NCBI GenBank assembly: GCA_027019605.1
Contig: JALUWJ010000150.1
Location: 1 to 38,204 of the forward strand
Source of the DNA: Henriciella sp.
GTDB lineage: Bacteria > Pseudomonadota > Alphaproteobacteria > Caulobacterales > Hyphomonadaceae
Direction: 5' to 3'
DNA length: 38,204 bases
Position 1 is the first letter of the stretch. The number at the start of each line of letters is the position of its first letter. This document shows positions 1,343 to 37,582 of this stretch, in pieces. A program made the translations under genes and the position numbers. Below the pieces are notes generated by a model that was not told the DNA's origin, ran no database searches, and saw only the letters and a program-made list of their open reading frames with translations.

Positions 1343-1367
1343 GCGCTCCTATGGATCACAAGAAAAA

Positions 1368-2263: not shown

Positions 2264-2896
2264 ATGGAAATCTCAGACGTCTTCGCGGTTCTGAACGTGT
2301 TTGGTCTGTTTGTGTTTGCGGTTTCGGGCGCTCTGACGGCCATCCGCAAGCAGCTCGATTTTCTGAGCGTTTTGATCATTGCCTTTTTCACCGGCGTCGG
2401 TGGCGGAACCATACGCGATGTCATGCTGGGCACCTCACCGGTTTGGTGGGTCAATGATCAAACCGCGGTGCTGATCTGCATTTTCGGCGCGATTGTCGCC
2501 AGCGCGACGCATCAACGCCTATGGTCGCGGCAGAAGGCATTGATCTGGGCCGATGCCGCAGGACTGTCAGTCTTTTCCGTGCTCGGGGCGCAGTCGGCTT
2601 TAGAGGCCGGCGCGCCAACGATTGTGGCAATCTTCATGGGCGCCGTCACCGCAACATTTGGCGGCATCATTCGCGACGTTCTGTTGGGGGAGCCTTCCCT
2701 CATTCTAAAACAGGAAGTCTATGCCACCGCGGCCTTGGGAGGCGCGACGGTTTTTGTGGTTCTGAACGAGATTGGTTTTTCGATGGATCTCGCCGCCATC
2801 GTGGCGGCGCTCTTAACCCTCGCCATTCGAGGCGGGGCGATCATCTTCGGCTACTCGCTCCCGAAACTCGGCAGTGATGTAAAGCGCGATCCTTAG
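2264..2896 (+). CDS. TRIC/UPF0126-family cation channel-like membrane protein
   Basis: A 210-residue integral membrane protein made almost entirely of hydrophobic segments, in two homologous halves. Each half contains the family signature: GVGGGTIRDVMLG (about residues 43-55) and ATFGGIIRDVLLGE (about 127-140). This duplicated GGxxRD layout defines the UPF0126/YicG family, now classed as prokaryotic trimeric intracellular cation (TRIC) channels, which conduct monovalent cations as homotrimers. The start at 2264 has a strong AGGAGGAG site 7-8 nt upstream. Length is normal. It appears monocistronic; the downstream cfa gene converges on it. Physiological role in bacteria is not established. Confidence 0.9.
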   Translation: MEISDVFAVLNVFGLFVFAVSGALTAIRKQLDFLSVLIIAFFTGVGGGTIRDVMLGTSPVWWVNDQTAVLICIFGAIVASATHQRLWSRQKALIWADAAGLSVFSVLGAQSALEAGAPTIVAIFMGAVTATFGGIIRDVLLGEPSLILKQEVYATAALGGATVFVVLNEIGFSMDLAAIVAALLTLAIRGGAIIFGYSLPKLGSDVKRDP

Positions 2897-2932
2897 CGGC
2901 CTTGAGAAACTCCGCCCTCAAAGCCTGTCACG

Positions 2933-4144: not shown

Positions 4145-4325
4145 CAACCGCCCTCCGCTTGCAGACGGCATTTTTCTCAAAAAAAGTCGAAATCTCCAAC
4201 TCAACTACCGAATTCGAGCGATCACATTTTCCTGAATTGGGTCAGGAAGGAGACGGCTTCACCACCGTTTTATCCGCGTAAACCAGGCGAAACCCCAGGC
4301 TTGGATCGGGGGCAAAACTGCCGAT

Positions 4326-5168
4326 CTATCCCCATCCTGCTTTGTGATCTGAGACGTAAGTTTCCAGAGCGCGCGGTTTGCGGCCCAGCAAAAATTCAAC
4401 ATCATTTGATGGGCTGAATGACATGCCCATGCGCACCGCAAAGGTCATTTCGGCATTCATCTCTGCATACCAAGGCTCAGCCCCTTGAGCGATCAATCCA
4501 TCGCGCATTTGGTCTGGCGTGATCGCCATAAAGGGAAGGTCCCGGCCGAGGGCAGCGCTGATCCGCGCCGCGGCTTGCGCAAAGGTCATCGCATCCGGCC
4601 CGGTGATCCGATAGGTTCGGTGCGTATGCCCCGTTTCAGTCAATGCCTTGATCGCGATTTCGGCGACATCTCGGACATCAACGAAACTGGTTTTCCCTGG
4701 TCCGTCCGGGAACATCACGGCACCCGCGGCAACAAAGCCGGCAAAATTCTGCATGAACCAATCCGGGCGAAGGAAGGTCCAGTTGAGATCAGTGTCCCGC
4801 ACCACGGCCTCCAACTCGCCAGTGCGTCGAACGAAGAAGATCTCGCTTTCAGGATCCCCTTCAGCCGACAGCATGACAAACCGCTGCACTCCAGCTTGCT
4901 GAACTTGCTGCACCATGCGCTGCAGATCTGTTTTAAACGCGTCGCTTTGATTGGTGACCATGTAGACGGCCTCAACACCGTCTAAGGCAGACGCAAACGC
5001 TGCCTCGTCGGAGAAGTCGCCGAGGGCGGTTTCATAACCGTCTGATCCGATCATGGCGGCGGCCTTTTCAGCGTCGCGCACATATATGCGGAACGCTACG
5101 TCTCGCGCGATCAGTTGGCGCGCGATCTCGCTTCCGACATTCCCTGTCGCCCCAGTCACCAGTATCAT
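4326..5168 (-). CDS. NmrA-like NAD(P)-binding reductase (atypical SDR)
   Basis: A 280-residue Rossmann-fold protein. The N-terminal MILVTGATGNVGSEIARQL gives the GxxGxxG dinucleotide-binding loop at residues 6-12. FRIYVRDAEKA suggests an arginine suited to NADP phosphate. The downstream LRPDWFMQNF motif is typical of the NmrA/QOR2-like atypical short-chain dehydrogenases. Such proteins either reduce quinones or sense the NADP/NADPH state; the catalytic YxxxK motif is absent, as usual in this subgroup. It lies 17 bp downstream of a TetR gene on the same strand and is probably co-transcribed with it from the operator at 5807-5833. The substrate is unknown. Confidence 0.82.
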   Translation of the reverse strand: MILVTGATGNVGSEIARQLIARDVAFRIYVRDAEKAAAMIGSDGYETALGDFSDEAAFASALDGVEAVYMVTNQSDAFKTDLQRMVQQVQQAGVQRFVMLSAEGDPESEIFFVRRTGELEAVVRDTDLNWTFLRPDWFMQNFAGFVAAGAVMFPDGPGKTSFVDVRDVAEIAIKALTETGHTHRTYRITGPDAMTFAQAAARISAALGRDLPFMAITPDQMRDGLIAQGAEPWYAEMNAEMTFAVRMGMSFSPSNDVEFLLGRKPRALETYVSDHKAGWG

Positions 5169-5185
5169 TTGCGTCTCCGATTATT

Positions 5186-6131: not shown

Positions 6132-7532
6132 TTAGGCGAGCTCTGCCATATAGCCCTGAAGCTTCATCACGGATGGCACAGAGTTTTCACGCAGCCGGTT
6201 CATGATGGCGAGCTTTTCCGTTTCGTGCTCTTGAATGCCCGAGACGAGCTCCGAATATCCGTCCAGGCGGTTCTCACGCAGCCATTTGCGCAAGTCTTTT
6301 TCCTGCGACCAATTGAATTGGTTCATCATGAACGCGTTCTGCATGCGCACCCAATCGGTGGCGTGGTTCGGCAGCGGCACGACCTGGCAGAGTCGATTTT
6401 TCTCTTCCTCAGTATCGCGGGTCAGCTCGATATGCGCGATGAAAGCAGCGCTGAAGACGGGCTGTACGGTTCTCACCGTTTGCAGGCGGATCGTGTCGCC
6501 AGCAAAAATCGTTGTTTCTTCAGCATTGCCAACCGCGCAGGCGGAGCAATCGACAAACAAAGTGTCCGGATCGCTCGGCAGCGTGCCTTCGTCCATGATG
6601 ATCTGATCCGGCTCAATGCGCTGGATCCGGCCCTTGCGAATAACGTTTTTGATCTTGCGAAGCTCGGCCAGCTCCGGATCGGAAATGGTCGCGCCGTGGA
6701 ACATTGTCGGGCGAACGGACTCATCGATGCGCACGAAGATGCCTGCTTTCTCGATCCGATCGAACATATCATCGATCGAGGTCGACGATGCAATCGCTTC
6801 CATTTGCGCCGCTTGTGCGCCCATCGTGGCCTCGAAAAAGCGTGGATCTGGCTGGGTTGTCTCGCGGCGCATCAACCAGGCATCGCGCGGCCGCACCCAG
6901 TGAATTTGGTCTGGATCGACATGGTTTTCGAGCAACCATACCACCGCGTCAATCCCGGTCTTTCCGCCACCGACGATCACATAACGCGACGGTTGCTCCA
7001 TCACTTTTGGTAGGTCGTTGAGCGGCATCATTTTGACCCCGTCAGCGACTTCAAAGTTTGGCGTGTGCGTTGAAGGCACAGTGGTCTTCAGCCAAGTCGA
7101 GTCGACAATCTTCTCCCGAGCCACGACTTCATAAGTCTTATCAGACGTCAGGGCGGAGATTTTGCCGTCGCCTTCATACTTGCACATTGGAAGGTAGGTG
7201 ACCCGTCCACTCGGCAAGAATTGGTAGCGCATCACTTCGTCAAAATAGGCCATGATCTCTGGGCCCGTGGCGAGGTCTTGCAAGCCTTTGTTCAAGCCGG
7301 TTGAGTCGATCGTGCCCTTGGACAGCTCTTTCGAGCTCACCCCATAATAGGCCGACGGTTGGTGCAGCGTCACATAGGGGTAAGCGTCATTCCAGTGCCC
7401 GCCCGGCTTGTGGTGCATATCAACGATCAGGACGGTCTTATCGCTTTCGGACAGGATGATATCCGCAAACGCCATGCCCATCGCACCCGCGCCCACGATT
7501 AGATAATCAACCTCAAACTTCTCCGCAGCCAT
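6132..7532 (-). CDS. Flavin-dependent NAD(P)-binding oxidoreductase
   Basis: A 466-residue protein with a Rossmann FAD-binding motif at the N terminus (YLIVGAGAMGMAFADIIL, GxGxxG type), followed by GGHWNDAYPYVTLHQPSAYYG, an arrangement like that of flavin monooxygenases and K-oxygenases (GG.W.. and LHQPS). A second nucleotide-binding motif, YVIVGGGKTGIDAVVWLL, occurs mid-protein and suits NAD(P)H. The ATG at 7532 is chosen because GGAGGAGG sits just upstream; an in-frame TTG lies at 7547. It is divergent from a TetR gene, with two operator copies between them, so expression is probably substrate-induced. Proteins of this type oxidise small organic molecules; the substrate is not deducible. 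Confidence 0.75.
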   Translation of the reverse strand: MAAEKFEVDYLIVGAGAMGMAFADIILSESDKTVLIVDMHHKPGGHWNDAYPYVTLHQPSAYYGVSSKELSKGTIDSTGLNKGLQDLATGPEIMAYFDEVMRYQFLPSGRVTYLPMCKYEGDGKISALTSDKTYEVVAREKIVDSTWLKTTVPSTHTPNFEVADGVKMMPLNDLPKVMEQPSRYVIVGGGKTGIDAVVWLLENHVDPDQIHWVRPRDAWLMRRETTQPDPRFFEATMGAQAAQMEAIASSTSIDDMFDRIEKAGIFVRIDESVRPTMFHGATISDPELAELRKIKNVIRKGRIQRIEPDQIIMDEGTLPSDPDTLFVDCSACAVGNAEETTIFAGDTIRLQTVRTVQPVFSAAFIAHIELTRDTEEEKNRLCQVVPLPNHATDWVRMQNAFMMNQFNWSQEKDLRKWLRENRLDGYSELVSGIQEHETEKLAIMNRLRENSVPSVMKLQGYMAELA

Positions 7533-7562
7533 CGCCGCCTCCTCCAAACAATATAGATCTTG

Positions 7563-25121: not shown

Positions 25122-25198
25122 TCTAGCCGCGTATTCGCGCTAAGAAATAAAAAAATTGGAGTAACCACTAGGCTTAATTGGCGAGAAAGGAGCAATTA

Positions 25199-26110
25199 AT
25201 GACTGAAGAGTTGAACATTATGGAGATCGCTGACGAAGATTTAGACGCAATGACTCCTGATCAGTCGGCTGCTTATTCCGCCAAGCTTTGGGGGGCTCAC
25301 ATGCAAGCTGAATCTGAGGCTTTCGGTGCTATAGAGGCGGGTGCAATTCCGGTCGTTGCCCTAGGCGACTCCTGGTTCGACTATCAGCCCGCTGGGTTTG
25401 ATATACTCGATTTTCTGCAACGCATGCCTGAGTACGAGATCTTTGACCACGGTGAGGCCGGGGATACGATTGAAAATATGGTCTACGGAACGGACTATAA
25501 AAGAAGTCGTTGGCGTCCTAAACGTCCTCGGCTGGAAGACGCGCTGAAAGAAGTTCGCGACTCTGGCGCAAAGTTTTTCCTCGTTTCGGGGGGCGGAAAT
25601 GATGTGGCCGGAAAGGAACTAGAAAACCTGCTCAACCATGCTGAAACTGGTCGCCCTGCTATTCGCAAAGGCCATCTCGATTTTTTAGTCGATACCGTCT
25701 TTAGAGAAGCCTTCGAGGCGCTATTCGAAAAGATCTGGAACATTGACCCGGAGATTTCAATCATTGGGCATGGATACGGCAACGCGATACCAGATGGACG
25801 CGGTGTTATCCGAGTTCTTGGGTTCCAATGGATTGGACCATGGCTGCGTCCGGCATTGACAAAGAAACGCATACTCGGAGCTGTGGAACGCCAGCAGGTT
25901 GTAACCACCCTAATTGGTCGGCTGAACGATCTAATTGGCGAGCTGGGTCAGAAGTATTCCAACTATCATGCGATTGACGCACGTACCGTGATCAAACCAT
26001 CGGATTGGGAAAATGAGCTACATCTCAAGAATAGCGCATTTAGACGAGTGGCCGTGCTCTTCCACGAGAAAATCCAGGCGATCGCCGCGCAACAAAAACA
26101 AATGAGTTGA
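25199..26110 (+). CDS. SGNH/GDSL-family hydrolase
   Basis: A 303-residue cytosolic protein (no signal peptide). ATG 25199 is chosen for the AAGGAG 6 nt upstream; a TTG at 25178 is in frame but unsupported. Block I VVALGDSWFDY places the nucleophile at S58. HGEAGDT (84-90) gives the block II glycine, GGGND (131-135) the block III asparagine N134, and DWENELHLKNSAF (269-281) the block V histidine H275. The usual Asp three residues before that His is N272; E271 or E273 may substitute. The family hydrolyses esters, including lipid acyl esters. Being first in the island after a CRP-like site, it may supply or release a substrate for the peroxidase-P450 protein, but this is inference. Confidence 0.8.
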   Translation: MTEELNIMEIADEDLDAMTPDQSAAYSAKLWGAHMQAESEAFGAIEAGAIPVVALGDSWFDYQPAGFDILDFLQRMPEYEIFDHGEAGDTIENMVYGTDYKRSRWRPKRPRLEDALKEVRDSGAKFFLVSGGGNDVAGKELENLLNHAETGRPAIRKGHLDFLVDTVFREAFEALFEKIWNIDPEISIIGHGYGNAIPDGRGVIRVLGFQWIGPWLRPALTKKRILGAVERQQVVTTLIGRLNDLIGELGQKYSNYHAIDARTVIKPSDWENELHLKNSAFRRVAVLFHEKIQAIAAQQKQMS

Positions 26111-26489: not shown

Positions 26490-26858
26490 ATGAATATAGT
26501 AAAATGGTCGATACCGGGGCATGCGCACGCGACGATCTTATTACCGCAAAGCCATATTAACTCAGTCATCGCTTTCAATATGACTCCCGTGAACAATACT
26601 GACGCGGCAGTTCGCGGCGCGGTCAATAGCAACACGTTCCCAGATTTTGTCGACATAGAACATTTCGATCATGTTCTGAAGCGGTCCCAGCGGCTCAATC
26701 GCGTTATTCACGTGGATATGGTCCATCACCAAGAGAGTTTTGATGCCCAGCTCGCATTCAGTTTTGTCGGCGGCACCAAAACTCATGGTGATGTTGTGCC
26801 GTTCAAGACAAATGCTCGGGGTATCACTAGATTGTCTGTTTTGGCGGAGTTGGTGTGA
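26490..26858 (+). CDS. Hypothetical protein coupled to the barrel protein gene
   Basis: A 122-residue frame starting MNIVKWSIPGHAH; ATG 26490 has GGGG about 6 nt upstream, while ATG 26478 has none. The stop TGA overlaps the next ATG (TGATG), a sign of translational coupling. The sequence has many histidines (HAH, EHFDH, HVDMVHHQE) and no signal peptide or membrane segment. I do not recognise a family. A frame of 108 codons exists on the opposite strand over the same DNA and cannot be excluded as the real gene, although the coupling and the upstream CRP-like site favour this strand. Confidence 0.42.
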   Translation: MNIVKWSIPGHAHATILLPQSHINSVIAFNMTPVNNTDAAVRGAVNSNTFPDFVDIEHFDHVLKRSQRLNRVIHVDMVHHQESFDAQLAFSFVGGTKTHGDVVPFKTNARGITRLSVLAELV

Positions 26859-28378
26859 TGAAGACTCTACTAACGACCGCGACCGCAATACTCATTTGTG
26901 CACCGGCTGCAATTGCTCAGGAAGAGAGCAGTGAGGCTTGTTGGATTGGAGGTGATGGCAGTACGCTCACAGATGACTGCGGTATATCAAAGGACGACTT
27001 GCTAGGATCCTTGGACTTAGCAGCCCCAGCGAACCCACTTTTTACCCTGATGGGGGCGACACCAGAGAAGGTCATTAAGCCGAAGCCTGGCGAGAGTTTC
27101 ATGTTTTCCTATCTTCCAGATGCTGTTGACGCATTTGGACAGGAAAACACATCGATCGGCATTGAGATAAACCCTGGCAATCTAATGATGCCTGAGTATC
27201 TTTCCCCTCAAGCGCTTCGTTCAGACGCGAACGGAGAATCGGTTTCTCGGATCGCGCCGTTTGGCAATTCACAGCAGCGTGCGGCATTCCTGTCCCAATT
27301 TACGCTTTCCGCAGCCTACATCGAGAAAAACGGAGATACTGACTCTTCTCAATACGGGTTAGGCCTCAGCTATGTCTATGACGGCAAATCCGCCATTTAT
27401 AATGGCAGAGACTTTCGAGATTGTGTAAAAGAGAGTGATCCAGTCTATGTGGAGATCCTTGATAACGCCGTGCCATTTGGCAACAAGGTAAGGTCAATTC
27501 TGGCGAAAACCGACATTCCAGCTATTGCCTACCAGGAAGTGGTTCAAGCAGCGGACAATGAGTACATTGATGCACAATCCGCCAGTCGTTTCCCGGATTT
27601 TAAAACGGCTTTCGAAAAAACGCAGATTACGATTCCCAGCGTGGGGCCAAATGGTGCGGTACAGTCGAGTCAGCGGGCGCTCACTGCGGAAGAGATTTCT
27701 GAGATTTTGAGCCACTTAGGGCCCATTGTGCCCGCCTATACGAAAGAGCAATTGGATCTAATAAATACCGCCATGCAAGAGTGTGGAGAGCTCGTCACAC
27801 GCTGGAACCGCCCAGTCTATGGTGGCGGAGTGTCCTTCTACCACACCGATATTGATCAACCCAATGAAACGATGTTGGGAACACAGACAGATGTGCCTGA
27901 AGATGAGTCGGGCTGGGGAATTTGGGCATCGGCTTCGCTTCCGTCACCTTTTGGAACGGAAACGAAAACAGTGGTGAACGGCTACTCAGAAGAGGTCAGC
28001 AACGGCCAATTCGTGATCAGCGCCCGTTACAATGACGGTCTCATCCGTGACCGAAAGGTTGGTGACGAGACAATAACAGAATCCGTTGATGGCTGGTCCT
28101 TGGGGGGACGTTACGTGCATCAACTGGCCGCCTCTCAAGACCAGAAAACCGTGAACGCGCGTGCTTTTCGGGCCTTTGTTGAGGCGGCCTACTCTCAGGA
28201 AGAATTCGGCGACATTGATGACGAGTTTTATCAGCTTGGTATCGGCGCAGAATTCCAGCTTCGTAAGGACCTGTTTTTCCAATTCATCATTGGTGACACG
28301 TTTAACAGCGACATCGACCGATCAACCTATCTCACAGGTGAGTTCAAATGGTCGTTTTCAAGCCTTTCTGCGCAATAG
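26858..28378 (+). CDS. Secreted, probable outer-membrane beta-barrel protein
   Basis: A 506-residue protein starting at ATG 26858 (GTG 26855 also possible), with GGCGGAG about 8 nt upstream. MKTLLTTATAILICAPAAIAQEE is a Sec signal peptide cleaved after AIA. The mature N terminus has a C-x(11)-C pair (SEACWIGGDG..DDCG). From about residue 315 to the end the chain is a run of alternating polar/apolar strands with turns, such as YGGGVSFYHTD, GWGIWASASLP, NGQFVISARYNDGL, DGWSLGGRYVHQL, FRAFVEAAYSQEEF, FYQLGIGAEFQL, DLFFQFIIGDTF and YLTGEFKWSF. This is the pattern of an outer-membrane barrel. An intrinsic terminator follows. It may pass substrate or product through the outer membrane; no family recognised. 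Confidence 0.65.
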   Translation: MKTLLTTATAILICAPAAIAQEESSEACWIGGDGSTLTDDCGISKDDLLGSLDLAAPANPLFTLMGATPEKVIKPKPGESFMFSYLPDAVDAFGQENTSIGIEINPGNLMMPEYLSPQALRSDANGESVSRIAPFGNSQQRAAFLSQFTLSAAYIEKNGDTDSSQYGLGLSYVYDGKSAIYNGRDFRDCVKESDPVYVEILDNAVPFGNKVRSILAKTDIPAIAYQEVVQAADNEYIDAQSASRFPDFKTAFEKTQITIPSVGPNGAVQSSQRALTAEEISEILSHLGPIVPAYTKEQLDLINTAMQECGELVTRWNRPVYGGGVSFYHTDIDQPNETMLGTQTDVPEDESGWGIWASASLPSPFGTETKTVVNGYSEEVSNGQFVISARYNDGLIRDRKVGDETITESVDGWSLGGRYVHQLAASQDQKTVNARAFRAFVEAAYSQEEFGDIDDEFYQLGIGAEFQLRKDLFFQFIIGDTFNSDIDRSTYLTGEFKWSFSSLSAQ

Positions 28379-28470: not shown

Positions 28471-28806
28471 ATGCATGTTGAAGAAAACGAACTAAACCAA
28501 ATCGCCGCAGCTCAGAGAGCGCTTGGGAAGTCGGTCGCATCGATCCTGGAAACAAGCTACGGAGATGACTTCGATGAAAAGGCGCTCGAGGAGGTTGGAC
28601 GTCAACTGGTCAAATACTCGAAGCGTCTGCAAGAAGGAATTCCGCGCGCGACCCCGTTCCAGCTGTTCAGGATCGCGACAGATAATGTGGATACGTCCTC
28701 AAAAGAAGAACACCGCATAATGATCGTCATCGATGATGGTCAGCCAGGGGATGTAGGGTTGCCGGGTGCTACGACACAATGCCCGCGATGCGGCTATCAT
28801 TTTTAG
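28471..28806 (+). CDS. Hypothetical 111-residue protein with C-terminal CPRCGYHF
   Basis: A small acidic protein with AGGAG upstream of ATG 28471. Residues about 1-55 are predicted helical (NELNQIAAAQRALGKSVASILE.., DEKALEEVGRQLVKYSKRLQE in separate stretches). The C-terminal part HRIMIVIDDGQPGDVGLPGATTQ leads to a final CPRCGYHF. A single CxxC cannot hold zinc alone unless it dimerises or uses the nearby His. The terminal tag-like motif could be a leader or docking tail, but no family is recognised. It lies 9 bp upstream of the membrane protein gene and is surely co-transcribed. Confidence 0.6.
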   Translation: MHVEENELNQIAAAQRALGKSVASILETSYGDDFDEKALEEVGRQLVKYSKRLQEGIPRATPFQLFRIATDNVDTSSKEEHRIMIVIDDGQPGDVGLPGATTQCPRCGYHF

Positions 28807-28815
28807 GTAATATCC

Positions 28816-29799
28816 ATGACGACGCCTCTCTATTTTCGTGAAATAACTGCCTTTCCGCCCGGCGATGAAAATGAAATCGTTTTCAACAAAGGGGGCGCTG
28901 AGAAGAAACAGCTTCCGCCAGAGTACCAGGCTTTTCTCACCGACCTTGAACTTGCTGCCAGCCGCGTAAGATCGGCATTTGATATGGAGTTTCCCGAAGC
29001 CAGAGCACGTTTGATCAACGCGCTCACGCATGCTGCGAGGGTAGGTTTAGGAGGAGCATACCCAAATCTTCCATTGGGGAAATCTCAGTTTGAGGTTGTG
29101 AAACTGAAGATCGCTAACGAGGCCTATCAAATCCGTAGAGATCGTATTTATCGAATGCTTCAATGGTCTCCAGCCTGGCTGGTAGGGATCATCGCTCTGT
29201 TCTCAATCTGGTTTCTGTTGAATAATATTGCAACAACAATTGCCGATGCGATCAAGCTGACGCCGCAAAGCGTGTCTGATTTCGGCGTCTCTCTCGGGGC
29301 CTACGGTATGGCTCTATTTGGCGTTTTTTTTGGTGCTTTATTGATAGCATTTGGGCGAAATCGGAACATCACATTCGACAACTTTACAAAGATTAAGACC
29401 TACCGGTTCGGTGTTGTGAAGTATCTTATCTTCCTCTCGGTGCTCGCAGCCATTCTCATGATATTGCTGTATCACAAGGTCGTCCAATTCGGATTGGGGA
29501 CGATTGTCTTGAATGATTTCCTCGAGATTCCTTCGTACGGTGTCATAGTCGGTCTCGTTTGTGCTGTCAGCGAACCCTTTATTCTGGGTCTGGTTACGGA
29601 AAACTTGAACCCGGACTCCACCAATGAGGCGATCAAAACGGGCGTCCCCTCTGGAACGCCCGGCGAATCCGGAAACCAATCTGCTGAAAGCAACTCTCCC
29701 CAAGACAAACCTTCCGGAGGTGAACCTCCCGAAGACAACCCTCCCGGAGATAACCCTCTCGAAAAGCAGAGTGAAACCTCATCGCCAAAGCTGGAATGA
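28816..29799 (+). CDS. Four-helix membrane protein with Pro/Gly-rich tail
   Basis: A 327-residue protein. The N-terminal 115 residues are soluble and partly helical (YQAFLTDLELAASRVRSAFDMEFPEARARL). Four transmembrane stretches follow at about 117-140, 158-178, 201-222 and 236-256. The C-terminal 65 residues are a low-complexity tail rich in P, G, N, D and E with imperfect repeats of a P-x-D-N-P-P-G type. No family is recognised. Spacing shows it is translated with the 111-residue protein and precedes the DyP-P450 gene by about 95 bp, which contains CRP-like site 3. It could anchor a complex at the inner membrane; this is inference only. The start codon has a weak ribosome binding site. Confidence 0.65.
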   Translation: MTTPLYFREITAFPPGDENEIVFNKGGAEKKQLPPEYQAFLTDLELAASRVRSAFDMEFPEARARLINALTHAARVGLGGAYPNLPLGKSQFEVVKLKIANEAYQIRRDRIYRMLQWSPAWLVGIIALFSIWFLLNNIATTIADAIKLTPQSVSDFGVSLGAYGMALFGVFFGALLIAFGRNRNITFDNFTKIKTYRFGVVKYLIFLSVLAAILMILLYHKVVQFGLGTIVLNDFLEIPSYGVIVGLVCAVSEPFILGLVTENLNPDSTNEAIKTGVPSGTPGESGNQSAESNSPQDKPSGGEPPEDNPPGDNPLEKQSETSSPKLE

Positions 29800-29893: not shown

Positions 29894-32800
29894 ATGTCAA
29901 AATACGCCAGCAAATACAGGGACGTTTCCAGCAAGGATATCGACGGCATTAGTGACCTGGTCGTTTGGGCTCCAATTAAACAAGGATTCATCGAGGCGTT
30001 TTCGAACGTGACCTATGAGACGCGGCTTCGCGTAGTTGCAGAAGCCCTCCATAGCGTTCGAAAAAGCGCCCGCGAGCATGAATTGCTGGAGCCTTTTTCT
30101 GATACAGCTAAGCGGATCTTGTCTTTATTGGATTTTCGCATCGGGATTGTCGATCGGGAGCTATTCCAAGCGCAGCCTGGCGACGATAATTCAAAGCCGC
30201 GATACCGCCCTCGCAAATACATGTATCTCGTCGCGACATTTGATGGCCCTTGGGAGCCGTATATGCGCCTTATCTGGGAGCCGCTCGGCGCGTTCCTCGA
30301 CTTGGTTCTTTGCAATTGTGAAGGCTATGTCCCTTCGGTCGACAATGACTTCGAAACATATGCACAATGGGTCCGGGACAACCAACTAGATTCAGCAATT
30401 TTCTACTCTACGTCCGGCTTAACCGTGAAAGACAAGATTTATTTGTCGGACATTGAAGAGATTCTGCGTTCCAGTTCTAACCCCGTGAACCTTCAGACGA
30501 TTGCCCAACACAGCATCCGGCACCCCGACGATGTTGCAAAAGAAATTCGAGATTCTCGCAACGGTCAGCGTCTGGCATTGAAGCTGGGATTGGAAGCGCT
30601 CAATGTGTTGTATAAACTTGCAGATTACTATCCCGGGGATGACGTAAAAATCGGTGACGGGCGCTACCTATTGCGGGCGGCGAGGCGCCTTTTAAACATG
30701 TATGACTTCCCGGGGCTTCCGAGTGATATAGAGCGCCTCTACAAACCACAACTTGACTGGTATCGCCTTGGAGCAGTTGAAAGCAATCGTCAAAATGAGC
30801 GAGATCCCGAGTTTAAAGAAAGTGAAATTCAAAAAGGGCTCCTCACCACTTACGATACCGAGGAATTTATAACCTCGCATGGTGCCTTGTTGCTCATTAG
30901 AGTGAAAAAACCAGAACTGGCCAAGCTCTTCTTAGAGGTCTTTCCTTTTAGTTGGGAGGGGGAAGCAACTGAGAAGGCGCTCACTAATACTTTCTTCGGT
31001 CAGATATTCACCAATGTTGCGTTTTCATATCGTGGCTTGGAAAAGCTGGGTGTGCCAGAGCGCGATTTAGACGGATTTCCTAAGGAGTTCCGGCAAGGAA
31101 TGCAGGAGCGTGCAGCCTTGCTTGGAGACAAATATGGAAACCACCCACGTCGTTGGCGCTTGCCAGAGCGCAATGGGCCGCTCGCCGACGAGTATAACGA
31201 TCGTCCTGTGGAGCTTTCTGAGATCGACATTGCAATTCAGGTGCGATCCGGTTTTTCGGCACAAGAGTTCATCAGCAATACGTTCCAGTCTTTCAGCAGC
31301 ATCGCGCGAGATCTGCAGTCAGCGAATGGCAAAATGGAAGGGCCGCGAACTTTCGGAGAAGAATTGGCGAACAGGTTTATATTGGAGCACAACGTTCAGC
31401 ATACCAAGTTCTCTTACTTGCTGAATGCCGATTCGCCTGATCCAGATCTCCCACTCTCGTTCGACTGGCTTAATCAATTTTTCGCTCAACGAGATGGCGA
31501 GAGGAGCGCTCGCCCCCTCATCGAAATGTTCATTCTCTATATCGCGAATCTCGGAGAGTTTTTTGGATTCGAGATCGTATGCGTTGAAGATATGTTTCGT
31601 CCGGACGCAGACCAGATCGACCAACGCGCCAATGATGACAATCCTAGTCTATCCGAAGCCATCGATCACTTTGGATTCCGGGACGGGATCAGTCAGCCTG
31701 TCATAGTTGATAAAGTGGAAAAAAATGCGCCACCAGATCACGTGACTCATGGCGAATTGTTCTATGGGTATAGAAATATGCGCGGCGATACTCACCGCCT
31801 CGAACAACGCGAAGATTTAAAATATCGCTCAAGCTTTCTCGTTGTCAGAAAAATGCGGCAAGACGTGAAATACTTCAAAGAGTTTGAAGACGACCATTCT
31901 GAAAAGATTGTCGACGCTTTGGTAGGGAGGAAAAAAGGTCCAGATGGAACTCCATTGATCGCTTCGAAGCTTGGACTTAATCATTTTACTTACGAGGATG
32001 ATCCAAAAGCAAAACGCTGTCCGTTCTCTGCGCATATTCGTTTATCAAATCCGCGCGGCAAAGAACACGACCGCAAACACCCGATGATCCTAAGACGTGG
32101 TATGAGCTTCGGGACCCGATATGACGAAAAAGTTGAAGCGCATCGCAACGAGCTCATCCCTCAAAGGGGTATCGTTTTCATGGCGTACTGCGCCAGCATC
32201 GCTGAGCAATACGAAGTGATTCAAAGATGGTTGAACGCAGGCAATGCGACAGGCGTCTCGTCAGCTCAAAACGATCCGCTCACCGGCGCGCATCCAGCAA
32301 ACAGCCCACAAATGTTCTGGTGCCAAACCGATGACGGGTTTCATTCGGTTGAAATAGAGAAGCCCTTCGTAACTCTCGACTGGGGACATTACTTTTTCGT
32401 ACCCAGCAAGACAGCTTTGCGACGGATTGCTAGATTTGAAATCGATCAGAGTGCGGAGCTGGAGCGCCAACTCTCCGGAGAAGAAATTATCGCTCAAATT
32501 GAGGAATTGCCCGAAAACGTACAGCGTGATGAGTGGAAGCAATTGCTTGAAGACTATCTCTCGAAAGATCCTGCAGAACACGATATAACGCCGCGGGTAT
32601 GGGAAGCCATAGATGCGCGCGGTGGAGCGTTAAGGATCGAAAGTGGTATCGCCTTTGATTCAGGAGATGAAGAACCGACTCAGGAAAAGGATCCGCACCA
32701 AAAGATCGTTTTGGTCACAAGCCAAAAACACATCATGGACGTGTTCAAAAATGATTGCCTCGAAGGGGACGTGGCTGATTCGAGCTCGCGTGTTCGGCCG

Positions 32801-33985
32801 TTCTCTTCGCGCGAGCAGTACGAACGCATCAGCCGTAAAGATGCATTTGGCACTATATATGTTTCACTGGATTCGCCATGTCCGCATATTGCCGGCGAGG
32901 CTTCGCAACAGAGCCGCTACCACCAAGAGGCTTACCCCACGAATTCGTTTTTAATGAAGCACACGCTCGATGAAGCCATCAGCGAAGGGTTTCTGGCAGG
33001 TCAGCAGGTTCTCAACGATCTAAAATCGGTCACCGAAAACCTGAATCCATTGCCGCGGTCTCAAGCGCTAGAGTTCAAACTTGAGTTGGGATATCAATAC
33101 ATACAGCCCGCCTTGGCAAATCTGTGCCATACATGGTTTGGCATTCCAGACTATGAAGAAATCGAAGCGGGAAGCTGGGACTGGCGAGAATCTCGCCAAC
33201 CGGTTTGCCCCGGTGATTTCTTGTCGCCATCGCGCCACGCATTCTATCCCCGTCCTACATCGGCGATTGAAAAATATGGCCTCAAACATGGAGTTGCGCT
33301 GCGTAAAGCGGTGAAAAAATACGTCGATAAGCATTGGGGCGCTACCGAATTGATGAAAGGCGAAATTGCCAGCCAGATGCATGAGGCACTTCGAAAGCAG
33401 TCAACGGGTGAATTACCCGGCTCACCAGAGATCGACTACAAAGAGTTGATGTGGCGAAATCTTATTGGGATTATGATTGGAGCTCTGCCTCCCATGGATG
33501 CCAATTTGAGATTTGCAATGCTGGAGTGGTTGAATGAAGAGACGCTTTGGCGCTTGCAAGCGGACTTTCGTCAACAGAAGCAAAGGCTGGGCGTTGTCGA
33601 TGCCGCCAAAGCAGCCTTAAGCGATGAATTGGTGCGCGCCATGTGCCTGCGCCCTGCGCCAGACTTGATCTATCGCGTCGCGAATCAAGATTTTGACTTC
33701 GACGGAGTCATGGTTCGTAAGGGCGAAATGGTAATTCTCTGTTTGTCTGCGGCGACACAGGCGCTTGTTCGTCAAAATGAGTCTAGCGTGGAACTGATTT
33801 TTGGCGGCAATCGAAAAGACCCATCGGGAATACCGATTGCGCCGGCAAAGCATCCTCAGCACGCATGCCCGGCCCAGGATATGGCGATGGGGGGGATGAT
33901 TGGCATACTTGCAGCCCTATTGGATGCCGGCACGATTCAAGCGATGCCAGCGTCGCTAATCGTCGGAATTTCGGATTGGATCTGA
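29894..33985 (+). CDS. DyP-type peroxidase / cytochrome P450 fusion protein
   Basis: A 1363-residue two-haem protein without signal peptide. Residues 1 to about 320 form a conserved-looking alpha/beta region with KYMYLVATFDGPWEPYMRLIWE and CNCEGYVPS. Residues about 330-870 are a DyP peroxidase. FGFRDGISQP (593-602) gives the GxxDG motif with distal D597, CPFSAHIRLSNPR holds the likely proximal haem ligand H714, and MILRRGMSFG holds the distal arginine R734 or R735. Residues about 925-1363 are a P450. E1245-x-x-R1248 is the K-helix motif, and HACPAQDMA places the haem thiolate at C1325. The I-helix reads LIGIMIGALPPM (1190-1201) without the acid-Thr pair, and the Gly after CP is Ala. AAGGAAC precedes ATG 29894. 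It probably makes or uses a peroxide in one domain and rearranges it in the other; the substrate is unknown. Confidence 0.85.
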   Translation: MSKYASKYRDVSSKDIDGISDLVVWAPIKQGFIEAFSNVTYETRLRVVAEALHSVRKSAREHELLEPFSDTAKRILSLLDFRIGIVDRELFQAQPGDDNSKPRYRPRKYMYLVATFDGPWEPYMRLIWEPLGAFLDLVLCNCEGYVPSVDNDFETYAQWVRDNQLDSAIFYSTSGLTVKDKIYLSDIEEILRSSSNPVNLQTIAQHSIRHPDDVAKEIRDSRNGQRLALKLGLEALNVLYKLADYYPGDDVKIGDGRYLLRAARRLLNMYDFPGLPSDIERLYKPQLDWYRLGAVESNRQNERDPEFKESEIQKGLLTTYDTEEFITSHGALLLIRVKKPELAKLFLEVFPFSWEGEATEKALTNTFFGQIFTNVAFSYRGLEKLGVPERDLDGFPKEFRQGMQERAALLGDKYGNHPRRWRLPERNGPLADEYNDRPVELSEIDIAIQVRSGFSAQEFISNTFQSFSSIARDLQSANGKMEGPRTFGEELANRFILEHNVQHTKFSYLLNADSPDPDLPLSFDWLNQFFAQRDGERSARPLIEMFILYIANLGEFFGFEIVCVEDMFRPDADQIDQRANDDNPSLSEAIDHFGFRDGISQPVIVDKVEKNAPPDHVTHGELFYGYRNMRGDTHRLEQREDLKYRSSFLVVRKMRQDVKYFKEFEDDHSEKIVDALVGRKKGPDGTPLIASKLGLNHFTYEDDPKAKRCPFSAHIRLSNPRGKEHDRKHPMILRRGMSFGTRYDEKVEAHRNELIPQRGIVFMAYCASIAEQYEVIQRWLNAGNATGVSSAQNDPLTGAHPANSPQMFWCQTDDGFHSVEIEKPFVTLDWGHYFFVPSKTALRRIARFEIDQSAELERQLSGEEIIAQIEELPENVQRDEWKQLLEDYLSKDPAEHDITPRVWEAIDARGGALRIESGIAFDSGDEEPTQEKDPHQKIVLVTSQKHIMDVFKNDCLEGDVADSSSRVRPFSSREQYERISRKDAFGTIYVSLDSPCPHIAGEASQQSRYHQEAYPTNSFLMKHTLDEAISEGFLAGQQVLNDLKSVTENLNPLPRSQALEFKLELGYQYIQPALANLCHTWFGIPDYEEIEAGSWDWRESRQPVCPGDFLSPSRHAFYPRPTSAIEKYGLKHGVALRKAVKKYVDKHWGATELMKGEIASQMHEALRKQSTGELPGSPEIDYKELMWRNLIGIMIGALPPMDANLRFAMLEWLNEETLWRLQADFRQQKQRLGVVDAAKAALSDELVRAMCLRPAPDLIYRVANQDFDFDGVMVRKGEMVILCLSAATQALVRQNESSVELIFGGNRKDPSGIPIAPAKHPQHACPAQDMAMGGMIGILAALLDAGTIQAMPASLIVGISDWI

Positions 33986-33990
33986 GAAAC

Positions 33991-36882
33991 TCAGATCTGG
34001 AAGGACCGTTCAATCTGTCGCCGTATCCTTTCAGTTTCTTCTACTTCCCGCTGTGAATCCCTGAGTTTTGCCGCTTCGAGAGCTTTCAGAATGTAGTCGT
34101 CATATCGCAGTTTCATGTGACCGTGGGCAGCAGCTAAGGCGAGTCCACGATACGCGGTACTTTCGCCTAGACGATCACCATTCCGAGCGCGTTGTAATGC
34201 GCGTGCTGCGAACCGCCTGACATTTAACCAGTCTTCCAGTTGCGCATAACCATCGACGAGATAGCCATAATTGAGCGAAATATATTGCTGGCTGCCATCG
34301 GAAATCATCCAGTTGGAGGCAGTTTCAATTTGTTTTAGAGGAGCGGCATCACCAGTCTGATAAAAGGCCGCTGCGGCCAATAATGCCTTTGACATGGCAT
34401 AGTGATACCTGGACCGCATTTGTTTAGCCATTTCTAGAACTTTAGATGAGTATTCGACCGTTTGAGCGTACTCTCTTCGCCAGAGGGCAGCCGCGCTCCT
34501 GTGACCGATAATCGACATTGCAGTTTGATGTCGCGTTTCGTTCAAATATATGAGTGCCTCCTTGAACGAGGTCTCAGCCTCCTCAAATCTGCCCTGGTCA
34601 GCCAAGGCGAAAGCCCGACAAGACACGGCGTAAGCCAGCGCCGAGGATGCACGATCCCCGGATCGGTTCTTTAGCTTGGTCGCGACAGCAGAATTTATGT
34701 GCTGATAGGCGGAACTGTAGTCTCCAGTCGCAGCCAAGAATTGACCTCTGCTGGCTTCAATTTGAGTGTCCAGTCGTCCATCCTGAAGACCGGGCGCAAG
34801 TTGAGCAGCTTCATCTAAGAAGTGGGTGGCGCGTTTAGGTTCGCCCAAACCATAATTCAATGATGCCAGCCAATAGTTGCCCCAAGCTAAGCCTTCATCA
34901 TCCTGGAAACGGGTTGACCACGAGATCGCTTGATCAAGGACTTTGAGTTGCTCCCGACTGGGGTCTACTATGCAAGCCAGGCCGTACTTGTGAATGATAG
35001 TGCGGGCTCTGAAGTCATAAATACCGCTACGTTCGATGTTCTCCAAAGCAAACTTAAAGTGCTGTTGTGCTTTATCTAGCGAAGACCGCCGCAGTGCTGT
35101 TTCACCCGCCTTCACAGAGTGTTCAATTGCGCGCTCATATTGTCCACTGTTTCCATAATGATAAGCAAGTTGCGCGTTTTGAGCTATGTCTTCGCTTGGA
35201 TTTGGCAATTGCGATAAGACTATGGCGATTTGACCATGGATTTCACGCCGTTCGCGTAAACCGATAACGTCGTAGATCGCATCCCGCGTAAGTCCGTGTT
35301 TGAATCGCAGCTGGCCTGGGTTCTTTTCCGAAAACAAGAAGTCTTCTTCTTGCAAACGCGTCAGATACGCTTTCGAATACTCGGATCGAAGAACCCCCTT
35401 CAAAACCCAAGCAGGTAGCGTATTTCCAATCACTGCCGCGACACGAAGCACGCGCGCCAATTCCGGGGTGAGTTTTGAATAGCGATCGCTGATCAGAGAC
35501 CTTAGCCATACATTCTGATCGCTCGTCACTAACTTCCCACCATCTCGTTTCACCGCATAACATAACTCTTCGAGGAATAACGGGTTACCGCCGCTTAACG
35601 ATTGAACTTGCTTTAGAACAAAGTGATTGATCTCAGGGGTGAGGTGCTGCGCCGCTTGCGCTATGTTGGAGTTGGCAAGCGGGGGTAAGGTGATCACCTC
35701 CGCGTGCAAACGATTGGCGAACAAATCGTCGATTTGTCGAGTGGCAATTATAAATTTAGCGTTTGTCGTTTGCTGAGACTGGGCGATCAGCTCAATGATG
35801 GCGGCGCTAGCGCTATCTGCAAATTGCCAATCATCGATTATGATCAGATGTTCTTTCTCCGAATGCAACGCATTAATGGCTCGAGCGACGAGCTCGGCAA
35901 TCCGATCAAGTTCTGCCTCGTTGGTTGAAATTGTATCTAATGCAAGGAGTGCGTCAATTTCATTCGCTAGTTGTTTCCCTACATTTACGTCTCTAGAACC
36001 TTTGCTTTTCCGAACAGCTTCTTTCGTCGCCAAGAGCAATAGGAGTATTGGGTAAAGGGCTGATGCACCGGGCTCTGGGGAACAAGCAACCAAACTAAAG
36101 GTGTAGCCTAGTTGGGCCGATTGTCCTTGCAGTACATGCAATAAGCGTGACTTGCCCATGCCTGCTTCAGCCTGAATAAAAATCACTGGGGTAGAAGACG
36201 TAATTGCACCCCATAGCAAGTTAAGCTCCTGGTCGCGTCCTACAAATGGAGTCATTGAATAGCGCGCGCTTTCCACACCATCGACCGCAGCTTCCACATC
36301 ATGACCACGCGCAAGTACTCGTCGAGCCAGAACGGGTTCATTCTGGTTTTTGAGTTTCACGGAGACAAGATCAGAAACGGGGTAGGAGCGTCTGTCGCCG
36401 CCCAATGCAGCGTCGCTGATCAGGATTTCATCAGGCGCTGCCGCGTCGAGAATTCTTGCCGCGACATTCGTCGGCCGCCCAAGTATTTCGTACGCACCAC
36501 GCGCTTTGTCGCCGTCTCTTACGAGTACAGTTCCGGCATGAATGCCAGTGTGGAACTTTACCGAGAAGTTGAGCCCATTTTTCCGGGCATTGAAATCGTC
36601 GACCGCTTTGTGGATTTCGAGAGCTGTCAGAATCGCACGGCTTGTTGCATCCTCGAATACCACCGGGTGCCCAAAAGCGAAAAGAAATCCATCACCATCA
36701 ATACGTACGAGCGTTCCACCATATTTTTCTATTATGCCTGAGAAAAGGTCTCGCAATTCGTCCAAAATCGCGCTGTAAGCCTCCGGCTCGAGCTGTGAAG
36801 AGATATGCGTAGATCCACACATATCTGAAAACACGATCGTCATGTGCTTGCGCATTTCATTAATCGGAGGCGTTGCGCTCAC
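33991..36882 (-). CDS. Class III nucleotidyl cyclase / AAA-type ATPase / TPR signalling protein
   Basis: A 963-residue cytosolic protein. Residues about 13-160 are a class III cyclase. Metal aspartates are D20 (VFSDMCGST) and D64 (RIDGDG); transition-state residues N139 and R143 (RPTNVAARI) are present. The adenine-selecting Lys/Asp pair appears as R60 and E132, conservative but unusual. Residues about 210-500 are an STAND/AAA-type ATPase with VGRDQEL, Walker A AEAGMGKSR (238-246) and Walker B LIIIDDWQFAD. Residues from about 570 on are TPR-like helical repeats (AEAETSFKEALIYL and similar). TPR parts of such proteins sense ligands or partners. Translation starts at GTG 36882, 1 nt after the crp stop. 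Its stop is 5 bp from the convergent P450 gene. Confidence 0.88.
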   Translation of the reverse strand: MSATPPINEMRKHMTIVFSDMCGSTHISSQLEPEAYSAILDELRDLFSGIIEKYGGTLVRIDGDGFLFAFGHPVVFEDATSRAILTALEIHKAVDDFNARKNGLNFSVKFHTGIHAGTVLVRDGDKARGAYEILGRPTNVAARILDAAAPDEILISDAALGGDRRSYPVSDLVSVKLKNQNEPVLARRVLARGHDVEAAVDGVESARYSMTPFVGRDQELNLLWGAITSSTPVIFIQAEAGMGKSRLLHVLQGQSAQLGYTFSLVACSPEPGASALYPILLLLLATKEAVRKSKGSRDVNVGKQLANEIDALLALDTISTNEAELDRIAELVARAINALHSEKEHLIIIDDWQFADSASAAIIELIAQSQQTTNAKFIIATRQIDDLFANRLHAEVITLPPLANSNIAQAAQHLTPEINHFVLKQVQSLSGGNPLFLEELCYAVKRDGGKLVTSDQNVWLRSLISDRYSKLTPELARVLRVAAVIGNTLPAWVLKGVLRSEYSKAYLTRLQEEDFLFSEKNPGQLRFKHGLTRDAIYDVIGLRERREIHGQIAIVLSQLPNPSEDIAQNAQLAYHYGNSGQYERAIEHSVKAGETALRRSSLDKAQQHFKFALENIERSGIYDFRARTIIHKYGLACIVDPSREQLKVLDQAISWSTRFQDDEGLAWGNYWLASLNYGLGEPKRATHFLDEAAQLAPGLQDGRLDTQIEASRGQFLAATGDYSSAYQHINSAVATKLKNRSGDRASSALAYAVSCRAFALADQGRFEEAETSFKEALIYLNETRHQTAMSIIGHRSAAALWRREYAQTVEYSSKVLEMAKQMRSRYHYAMSKALLAAAAFYQTGDAAPLKQIETASNWMISDGSQQYISLNYGYLVDGYAQLEDWLNVRRFAARALQRARNGDRLGESTAYRGLALAAAHGHMKLRYDDYILKALEAAKLRDSQREVEETERIRRQIERSFQI

Positions 36883-36883
36883 A

Positions 36884-37582
36884 TTATGTTCCTAAATGGC
36901 GAATGATCATTTTACGCAACCGATCGACGGAACAAATTTCTAGTTCTCGCCCTTTCTGTCTGATAATGCCTTCGCTTTTGAGCTTGCTGAATTCTCTGGA
37001 TATAGCTTCGCGGTGTGTTCCGAGTTTAGCCGCTAGTCTTCGATGAACGGGAAAATTCAAAAGCGTGACACTACTTTTGTCCCGCCCCGATTCTTCACAA
37101 CGTTTAACTAGTTCCAGCCAAATCCTGCACGGGACAGAGAGCGTCGACAGATCAAGAATGCGCTGACTAAGCTCTCGTATTCGCCCGGCCATGTGCATCA
37201 ACATCCACTCTCTGAATTCGCTATTTTGGTCGATAAGTAATCGAAACGTGCGACGTGATATGCTTAACACTTCGCTATCTTCAAGCGCGACCGCGTTCAT
37301 TGATCGTGGAGTTTCATCAATGGCGGCCAACTCGCCTACAATTTGGCCAGGACCGCACTCTCGAAAAAGAGTTTCCTTGGCCGCGACTGAAAAAAGCGTG
37401 AACTCTATGCAGCCCCTGCGGATAAGATACACATTGGTCGTTTCGTCTGACTTTGATAAAAAAGTCTGTCCTTTATCGACCTTCACCACGGACGCGTGGC
37501 CTATAAATAGCGCTTCAAGGTTTTTTGGAATGCGGATGGGGCGTTCGTCAGATAGATCCAGTAGAACAAAATCATCGAACAT
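36884..37582 (-). CDS. Crp/Fnr-family regulator with intact cAMP cassette
   Basis: A 232-residue regulator. The cyclic-nucleotide domain contains the phosphate-binding cassette G83-E84-L85-A-A-I-D-E-T-P92-R93-S94, which keeps the Glu and Arg-Ser that bind cyclic nucleotide in E. coli CRP. There is no N-terminal Fnr cysteine cluster. The winged helix (about 178-212) has the recognition helix HREAISREFSKLK with R191, E192 and R196 in the RExxxR order of CRP (R180, E181, R185), predicting GTGA/TCAC-type half sites. Such sites precede three island units. It is the first gene of an operon with the cyclase, so ligand source and receptor are co-expressed. Confidence 0.9.
   Translation of the reverse strand: MFDDFVLLDLSDERPIRIPKNLEALFIGHASVVKVDKGQTFLSKSDETTNVYLIRRGCIEFTLFSVAAKETLFRECGPGQIVGELAAIDETPRSMNAVALEDSEVLSISRRTFRLLIDQNSEFREWMLMHMAGRIRELSQRILDLSTLSVPCRIWLELVKRCEESGRDKSSVTLLNFPVHRRLAAKLGTHREAISREFSKLKSEGIIRQKGRELEICSVDRLRKMIIRHLGT

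Follow-up and report, generated by a model that had tools for sequence, protein, structure and literature searches.

Polypeptides that join a haem peroxidase to a cytochrome P450 are known from eukaryotes, and the sections available of a study describe them in both domain orders (PMC5919972). In the fungal Ppo enzymes, or linoleate diol synthases, which are fusions of the P450 families CYP6001-6005, the accessible parts of two papers call the P450 partner self-sufficient (PMC13049297, PMC5919972). The window analysed here is a stretch of 38,204 nucleotides from Henriciella sp., and the gene under study encodes a bacterial counterpart in which the peroxidase is of the DyP type. As in Ppo, the peroxidase precedes the P450 in one chain with two (here predicted) haems. 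Unlike Ppo, whose peroxidase belongs to the COX-like superfamily, this protein has a DyP half and an additional N-terminal domain (AB), and lies next to cyclase and Crp-type genes. It is not a Ppo member, as there is no COX-like domain and Pfam at E≤1 returns only DyP families; since the two peroxidases are unrelated, the convergent architecture proposed in the initial annotation is supported. The oomycete CYP5619 fusion, in which the P450 comes first as in the bacterial reverse fusions described below (L012-L017, L095-L097), differs in being eukaryotic and in carrying another kind of haem peroxidase/dioxygenase, and the available portion of the source makes no mention of an AB domain (PMC5919972).

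No description of a DyP-P450 fusion was found among the titles and abstracts listed in searches of the open-licence PMC literature. The CYP152 peroxygenases carry an Arg-Pro in the I-helix, have an altered acid-alcohol region and use no redox partner. According to the part available of one of the papers above, the same region is altered, and a redox partner is dispensed with, in PGIS (CYP8A1), TXS (CYP5A1) and plant AOS (CYP74) (PMC13049297). Finally, the Streptomyces P450 family CYP157 is described, in the accessible text, as having no ExxR motif and being genetically linked to regulatory 'conservons' (PMC3599690).

Organization of the fusion protein

The features of the gene and its product are the following:

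29894..33985, + strand: AB-DyP-P450 fusion gene, 1363 aa, with homologues of identical layout
29918..30445, + strand: N-terminal AB domain, residues ~9-184; in other loci also encoded separately, next to DyP
30854..32437, + strand: DyP-type peroxidase domain, residues 321-848
31682..31684, + strand: D597, catalytic Asp of GFRDG (34/34 aligned DyP domains)
32033..32035, + strand: H714, position of the DyP proximal haem ligand (34/34 DyP domains)
32093..32098, + strand: R734/R735, DyP distal Arg region (R734 34/34, R735 33/34)
32450..33979, + strand: P450 domain, residues 853-1362
33488..33493, + strand: P1199-P1200, I-helix, in place of the acid-alcohol pair (alignments)
33635..33646, + strand: R1248...C1251, degenerate K-helix ExxR slot (alignments)
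33674..33676, + strand: R1261, invariant P450 Arg (33/33 P450 domains)
33860..33868, + strand: H1323-A-C1325, His and Cys haem-thiolate ligand (His 32/33, Cys 33/33)

The gene is a natural DyP-P450 fusion in which the ligand and pocket residues of both halves are retained. It is read as a single ATG frame without internal stops, in line with the unbroken frame of the initial annotation, and encodes three parts: AB, the DyP peroxidase and a divergent P450. The full-length model has a pTM of 0.40, too poor for placing the two haems relative to each other.

The AB domain, a third conserved domain, had been overlooked in the initial annotation. It has no Pfam match in the window protein, and two stand-alone relatives match neither Pfam nor NCBIfam. 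The idea that AB is itself a DyP half was rejected, as profile comparison finds no detectable homology (probability 0.1%), and a comparison of AB with the PDB gave no convincing relative, the four MotB-type sequences obtained having E values of 0.04-0.13.

The DyP half is assigned to the DyP superfamily by a curated profile, by its signature residues and by the fold of a homologue. Pfam Dyp_perox_C (PF20628) matches residues 640-782 above its cut-off (E 6e-9, 36.3 bits versus 20), which bears out the predicted domain; DyP_N (residues 369-421) stays under the cut-off, and NCBIfam TIGR01413 matches residues 583-841 with an E value of 1.1e-24 and a score (87.3 bits) that lies below its cut-off of 100.5. 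The catalytic residues were found at the claimed sites, GFRDG occupying residues 594-598, with D597, H714 and R734 invariant among the 34 domains and R735 present in 33. The fold was assessed on the homologue L002, whose model is of low overall confidence: Foldseek places DyPs at ranks 1-26, 28 and 29 among the 50 matches listed. The closest PDB entries are bacterial DyPs (Deinococcus radiodurans 8re2/8re3 and Amycolatopsis DyP2 4g2c), which the window domain resembles in profile, fold, GxxDG Asp, proximal His and distal Arg; those chains comprise 442-493 residues without AB or P450, whereas here both are fused.

The P450 half and its altered motifs

The P450 half is more divergent. PF00067 scores 11.1 bits (E 0.16) against the single window protein, below the cut-off of 22.8, and a Pfam scan of that protein at E≤1 returns nothing for this half. 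On the other hand, a 9-row profile of the domain retrieves 67 PDB sequences at E≤0.01, and the 60 of these 67 that were listed are all P450s, judged by name apart from a few such as NascB, NzeB and GymB1 that we take to be P450s. The P450 part of the domain search suggested in the initial annotation stays below the PF00067 cut-off for the single protein and succeeds with the family profile. Structure prediction agrees with the P450 assignment: the domain model (pLDDT 77, pTM 0.84) has 1571 matches among PDB chains at E≤0.001, and the best 50 of them are all P450s with TM scores of 0.47-0.53 (query length).

C1325, proposed as the P450 cysteine, is indeed present in 33 of 33 P450 domains, and R1261 presumably plays a role of the haem-propionate type. 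The ExxR motif had been placed at 1245-1248. The letters E1245-L-V-R1248 exist and are unconserved, while the E and R of the K-helix align to R1248 and C1251, so that this claim does not hold. A second candidate, M1250xxR1253, has both residues invariant in a 7-row alignment and was dropped because the profile and a wider alignment both place the motif at 1248/1251, the positions of an E and an R in L053. L053 is also the only forward member (DyP before P450) to retain ExxR, which is degenerate in the other 9 of 10 and kept in 16/16 rows from reverse fusions, split genes and L100. Stable haem binding by the P450 half is thus not assured. CYP157 also lacks ExxR, which means that its absence does not exclude membership of the P450 superfamily; however, the K-helix sequences of CYP157 and of the fusion P450 differ, and a peroxidase fusion is not mentioned for CYP157 in the available part of the source (PMC3599690).

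The I-helix is altered as well. Forward members have the acid in 0/10 and the Thr in 1/10 cases. Overall, the acid is absent from 25 of 27 DyP-linked P450s (the exceptions being L031 and L094), versus 1 of 6 P450s whose short flanking stretches lack both AB and DyP; the Thr beside the acid position is kept in 8 of the 9 reverse fusions. Its acid-alcohol pair being replaced by P1199-P1200, the window P450 does not qualify as a classical O2/NAD(P)H monooxygenase, nor as a CYP152 member, for these prolines occupy the Arg-Pro position. Its I-helix alteration recalls PGIS, TXS, CYP74 and CYP152; unlike in those enzymes, the acid itself is gone, ExxR is degenerate and no close sequence kinship is seen.

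Relatives and neighbouring genes

The AB-DyP-P450 layout occurs in 7 complete frames, namely the window gene and six homologues of 24-51% identity from other genomes, and in one truncated copy, carried by a Sphingopyxis plasmid that also bears chlorocatechol genes. Two more DyP-P450 fusions have AB as an adjacent separate gene. The three parts are separate neighbouring genes in L092, L099, L104 and L105, and are joined as P450-AB-DyP in the reverse fusions (L012-L017, L095-L097), one of which resides on plasmid pNL2 of Novosphingobium aromaticivorans, a species whose reverse fusion has the locus tag SARO_RS19865 in strain DSM 12444. In L018, an opposite-strand ORF considered as a candidate P450 has no Pfam match, and the P450 was found on the other strand. 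Relatives have DyP and P450 fused either way round or encoded by neighbouring genes, arrangements which suggest that the two work as a pair. On the other hand, 10 of the 26 AB loci have DyP without P450 in the stretches examined (one of the ten, L103, stops at a contig end), so that AB-DyP may work alone.

A single origin for both orders was rejected in three of four tests. Grouping forward and reverse fusions as one clade gave a p-AU of 0.0005 for DyP and 0.0008 for P450 (0.002 with L100), while in the P450 tree a single origin of forward and reverse fusions minus L095, a grouping picked post hoc from the tree, was not rejected (p-AU 0.24).

The neighbouring genes considered are:

25178..26110, + strand: SGNH/GDSL hydrolase, tentative partner (Pfam below cut-off, E 0.0088)
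28471..29799, + strand: two small genes just upstream, of 111 and 327 aa, the longer with hydrophobic segments; membership unsure
33991..36882, - strand: class III nucleotidyl cyclase with AAA and TPR (Pfam), in convergent orientation and separated from the fusion gene by 5 bases
36884..37582, - strand: Crp/Fnr-type regulator, cNMP-binding and HTH (Pfam)

The cyclase carries the motifs FSDMCGST, IDGDG and NVAAR; a relative adjoins 9 of 10 forward fusions, and a Crp-type relative lies near 5 of 10. The two small upstream genes have no relatives in the loci compared. The SGNH gene of the window lies in a low-GC stretch 3.8 kb from the fusion, a relative forming a C-terminal extension of the fusion in L029, and an LCAT-type gene follows the L105 operon and is found near L100; lipid-family hydrolases are thus fused or near in four loci, where the neighbours scanned were hand-picked ORFs. 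A Pfam scan of 29 further ORFs of the window turned up no ferredoxin or P450-reductase family. At 6132-7547 the window has a gene for an FAD/NAD(P)-binding protein whose class is unclear.

Possible functions of the two predicted haems

We infer haem binding, peroxide use, reaction order, substrate, location and regulation of the fusion as follows. The protein would be a three-part, probably cytoplasmic enzyme, whose DyP half would react with H2O2 or organic hydroperoxides, generating a radical or oxygenated intermediate. The P450 half would then rearrange or hydroxylate it by isomerase or peroxygenase chemistry: having lost the usual O2-activation acid, it may run on peroxide without an electron-transfer partner. 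Both haems would act sequentially on the same substrate, a hydrophobic one and probably an acyl lipid freed by the partner hydrolase, a substrate class for which the evidence is weak, and the neighbouring cyclase and Crp-type regulator may switch expression. The peroxide-based chemistry put forward in the initial annotation is partly supported by the loss of the acid in 25/27 P450s and by the missing redox-partner families, the latter for 29 window ORFs only. To this explanation as a whole, a peroxide-run, redox-partner-free two-haem oxidase analogous to Ppo, we give a probability of about 45%.

A more specific version appears doubtful: a bacterial analogue of cyclooxygenase plus P450 isomerase, built on DyP, that would have arisen repeatedly and in either domain order. 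Here DyP would initiate the radical oxygenation of an acyl lipid supplied by a fused or adjacent hydrolase, and the thiolate haem would isomerize the hydroperoxide, all under cyclase/Crp control. To our knowledge, DyPs are not known as fatty-acid dioxygenases, and their physiological role is poorly known. If true, this version would represent a new bacterial oxylipin-like signalling or modification route.

The two-haem oxidase would be a second, unrelated way of uniting the haems of a peroxidase and a P450, would identify a specific partner for a group of DyPs and would supply candidate self-sufficient, peroxide-driven P450s as well as an entry point to possible oxylipin chemistry in bacteria. 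Furthermore, because the pair exists in bacteria both unfused and in fusions of either order, DyP-P450 and P450-DyP, it offers a natural test of intermediate channelling by fusions.

Alternatively, the haems could share peroxide and no intermediate, the P450 being an H2O2 peroxygenase for the hydroxylation of a hydrophobic or aromatic compound, with the DyP independently oxidizing or coupling a phenolic product, as in degradative or pigment chemistry. The loss of the acid-alcohol pair, the intact DyP pocket and the two plasmid-borne copies (pNL2 and the Sphingopyxis plasmid) are consistent with this reading; however, aromatic-degradation families number zero among the window ORFs scanned, and insertion-sequence and Tn3 transposase genes stand between the chlorocatechol genes and the fusion on the plasmid. 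We regard it as possible, on the unlikely side.

Less probable still, the P450 half could be a pseudo-enzyme, a haem-less or inert fold serving DyP as scaffold or sensor. Its degenerate ExxR, vanished I-helix pair and low P450 profile scores point this way, as does the P450-derived activator family TIGR04515, which matches some reverse and split relatives far under its cut-off. Against it, all 10 forward members keep the Cys, the His of HxC and the Arg at position 1261, L053 retains ExxR, and P450s without this motif are known, as the accessible text on CYP157 indicates (PMC3599690).

It is improbable that DyP only protects a peroxide-using P450 by removing or metering H2O2: peroxide is a DyP substrate and the pairing is 1:1 within a single chain, but the AB-DyP loci without P450 point to a probable separate role for DyP. 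Pycsar defence is defined by a cyclase plus a TIR or membrane effector. A part in anti-phage signalling, with the cyclase as a Pycsar-like sensor, is very improbable, although PADLOC models of Pycsar cyclases detect the cyclase (best 1.2e-13) and the Crp protein resembles PycTIR in its cNMP part (9.7e-14). These matches reflect general shared domains, the fusion itself has no PADLOC match at E≤0.01, and the cNMP-binding neighbour is of Crp type, with a DNA-binding HTH in place of TIR, and not an effector, which argues against Pycsar membership. Lastly, a frameshift or assembly artefact merging two genes, conceivable because the genome is a draft in 327 contigs with 84.5% completeness and 5.3% contamination, is refuted by the six other complete frames of like layout.

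A DyP-P450 fusion with two recognisable folds

The frame at 29894-33985 (+) is open throughout, from ATG to stop, and encodes a protein of 1363 residues in which three parts are distinguished:

Residues about 9-184: AB domain, N-terminal, conserved
Residues 321-848: DyP domain, conserved in relatives
Residues 853-1362: P450 domain, conserved in relatives

A natural DyP-P450 fusion had been proposed in the initial annotation, and this is confirmed: both folds are present, and the same layout is found in seven complete AB-DyP-P450 frames (window, L002, L027, L028, L029, L032, and L053). The DyP half matches Pfam PF20628 (6e-9), solved DyPs (best match 3.4e-26) and NCBIfam TIGR01413 (1.1e-24, yet under that model's cut-off). 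The Asp, His, and Arg residues earlier assigned to it are correct and are kept in 34 aligned DyP domains (R735 in 33/34). The AB domain of the window protein has no match in Pfam, and two stand-alone AB relatives have none in Pfam or NCBIfam.

The expectation that profile searches would recognise both domains held for the DyP half; for the P450 half it failed with the single protein in Pfam and held with a family profile. Judged by sequence, the P450 domain has diverged too far for Pfam to recognise it from one protein (PF00067, E 0.16, 11.1 bits, cut-off 22.8). On the other hand, a 9-row profile of the domain matched a 9-row P450 profile (6 rows DyP-linked, 3 not) with 99.6% probability (E 1.3e-24), and retrieved 67 PDB sequences at E<=0.01, of which the 60 listed comprise proteins named as P450s and a few presumed to be P450s. 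The AlphaFold2 model of residues 848-1363 (pLDDT 77, pTM 0.84) matched 1571 PDB chains at E<=0.001, and the 50 shown are all P450s. Information from the family settles the identity of the domain. The full-length model of the L002 homologue, poor overall (pTM 0.40), gave DyPs at ranks 1-26, 28, and 29 in a Foldseek search, the other ranks shown being P450s.

Distribution and origins of the AB-DyP-P450 partnership

One scan of genome contigs yielded two loci: L002, from a Deltaproteobacteria MAG, is a full-length homologue of 1207 aa, and L003, from Acidobacteriales, has adjoining but separate genes for AB and DyP. In draws that overlap and count known genomes again, the P450-domain profile matched 3/398 genomes of the order, 3/398 in a phylum draw (one match weak and only a candidate P450), 3/289 in a class draw (one weak, G789, which is an AB-DyP-P450 operon), 2/42 genomes of a genus, 1/25 of an order, and 11/282 of the phylum of L002. 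Three of these 11 genomes carry fusions (G1044, G1266, and G1324); the profile places seven of the other eight weak matches within P450 frames, the eighth, G1233, being a candidate only. The forward fusion (AB-DyP-P450 order) is thus rare and patchy. In L054 and L055 a separate AB gene precedes a DyP-P450 fusion; the two are closely similar copies of an AB, DyP-P450, cyclase locus within the same genome, G1324. L011 (11944-17394, Sphingopyxis plasmid pDB-1) is a copy cut at the N-terminus, immediately downstream of a Tn3 transposase gene. The label that the plasmid record gives to WP_011907039.1, the Novosphingobium fusion of the opposite, P450-AB-DyP order, goes no further than Dyp-type peroxidase domain protein.

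Searches with AB matched 16/229 genomes of the order and 8/207 of the L002 phylum. DyP lies in the same frame or adjoining at all 26 loci behind the matches, a P450 at 16, and a cyclase-profile gene at 15 (three matching over the cyclase domain only); the AB-DyP linkage is partly built in, because the AB query derives from DyP-linked sequences, the P450 and cyclase linkages less so. Reverse fusions, in P450-AB-DyP order, have frames of 1443 to 1772 residues (L012-L017, L095-L097); in both of those inspected, AB is preceded by hydrophobic segments. A P450 gene adjoins AB-DyP in L018 and L094, while AB, DyP, and P450 are separate genes in a row in L092, L099, L104, and L105. Related genes lie directly upstream of the reverse fusions L012, L017, L096, and L097; the one preceding L012 is TPR-rich and labelled a SARP-family regulator. 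AB, a common protein (about 340 aa; the L093 frame has 547), and DyP, with no P450 seen, occur in L003, L093, L098, and L101, the last three sharing a further ORF.

In midpoint-rooted trees with some long branches, the ten forward P450s group together (98/97), and the stand-alone P450 from the L088 AB/DyP/cyclase locus is sister to that clade (95/98). The ten forward DyPs fall on one side of the DyP tree (97/90), while a clade apart from them (100/99) unites the nine reverse DyPs with those of split L018 and L094. A single clade of forward plus reverse fusions is rejected both in the DyP test (p-AU 0.0005) and in the P450 test (p-AU 0.0008; 0.002 with L100), and is not rejected for P450 minus L095 (p-AU 0.24). 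For at least two origins of the fusions, the DyP test gives the stronger evidence.

P450 motifs and the proposed mechanism

These analyses demonstrate the fusion, its two folds, conserved pocket residues, and a repeated partnership. We tentatively favour, with a probability of roughly 45%, a tandem peroxide enzyme: both haems would be bound and used, the P450 would run from peroxide with no redox partner, and the DyP and P450 pair would handle one hydrophobic, probably lipid, substrate. The lack of a redox partner is proposed because Pfam finds neither a ferredoxin nor a P450-reductase family among the 29 other, longer window ORFs scanned; at 6132-7547 there is a gene for a FAD/NAD(P)-binding protein whose class is unclear. 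Alternatively, each haem enzyme might perform its own, independent peroxide reaction, which we consider rather unlikely.

That the P450 half is a former enzyme, no longer catalytic, is improbable. ExxR is kept in only one of ten forward members (L053) and in 16/16 other DyP-linked rows (9 reverse, 6 split, L100), and the alignment retains the Cys ligand position and R1261 in 33/33 P450 rows and the HxC His in 32/33. ExxR-less P450s such as CYP157 are described in an excerpt of PMC3599690. The initial placement of the K-helix motif, ExxR at 1245-1248, is wrong: by profile alignment and by multiple alignment, the E and R positions fall at R1248 and C1251.

The I-helix acid is kept in none of ten forward members (Thr at the following position in one) and none of nine reverse fusions (Thr in eight). 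It is missing in 25/27 DyP-linked P450s (exceptions L094 and L031, the latter counted as found within an AB-DyP-P450 operon) and present in 5/6 rows classed solely by roughly 1.5-kb flanks lacking AB or DyP; alignment at this site is unsure for L018, L092, and L095, which have inserts. According to the portions consulted of PMC13049297, PGIS, plant AOS, and TXS need no redox partner to cleave their hydroperoxides or endoperoxides, and its printed sequences show an I-helix Asn near the iron in PGIS and AOS and Ile in TXS; on our own reading, these occupy the slot where Thr would be.

The protein had been likened to fungal Ppo enzymes. The likeness would lie in the proposed mode of working, with an unrelated peroxidase, whereas membership in Ppo is ruled out, the COX-type domain being absent (Pfam). 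According to excerpts of PMC5919972, eukaryotes have peroxidase and P450 fused in either order (CYP6001-6005 and CYP5619); the DyP forms of bacteria repeat both orders with an unrelated peroxidase. In the sections seen of PMC4420034, DyPs and COX-type peroxidases belong to separately evolved superfamilies, and P450 fusion is mentioned for fungal LDS only. The mentions of DyP and 'fused' in the text available from PMC11727664 are unrelated, and the open-licence literature searched for DyP-P450 fusions, mostly titles and abstracts, names none.

Gene neighbourhood

Two genes follow the fusion:

33991-36882, strand opposite to the fusion: class III cyclase-AAA-TPR gene, lying five bases past the fusion stop
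36884-37582: Crp/Fnr-type gene, next after the cyclase gene

The cyclase contains FSDMCGST, IDGDG, and NVAAR, which we take to be its catalytic motifs. A related cyclase gene adjoins 9/10 forward loci (the exception, L029, is a 6.5-kb contig without one) and a Crp-type gene is near 5/10; a cyclic nucleotide may govern expression. Near 25 kb the GC content of the window declines from about 0.57 to about 0.49, and it does not recover before the contig end (38204). This low-GC stretch holds the SGNH gene, the fusion, and the cyclase and Crp genes, and looks like an acquired island. Between SGNH gene and fusion, 26855-28378 encodes a protein of 507 aa whose start resembles a signal peptide by eye; it matches no family over cut-off in Pfam or NCBIfam.

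L029 (392-5152) is a four-part AB-DyP-P450-SGNH hydrolase fusion of 1587 aa. Its extra C-terminal SGNH/GDSL domain is related to window gene 25178-26110 (22.8%, 1e-9); each of the two has GDSW, GGGND, and, at the C-terminal end, ELH or EFH, and both are under the Pfam cut-off. Because the roughly thirty neighbour ORFs of relatives searched in Pfam were hand-picked, these hydrolases count as individual observations and give no frequency. One LCAT-family gene lies beyond the cyclase in L100; another follows the L105 operon (395-5172), a compact same-strand row of AB, DyP, P450, and LCAT-family gene on a 6.2-kb contig.
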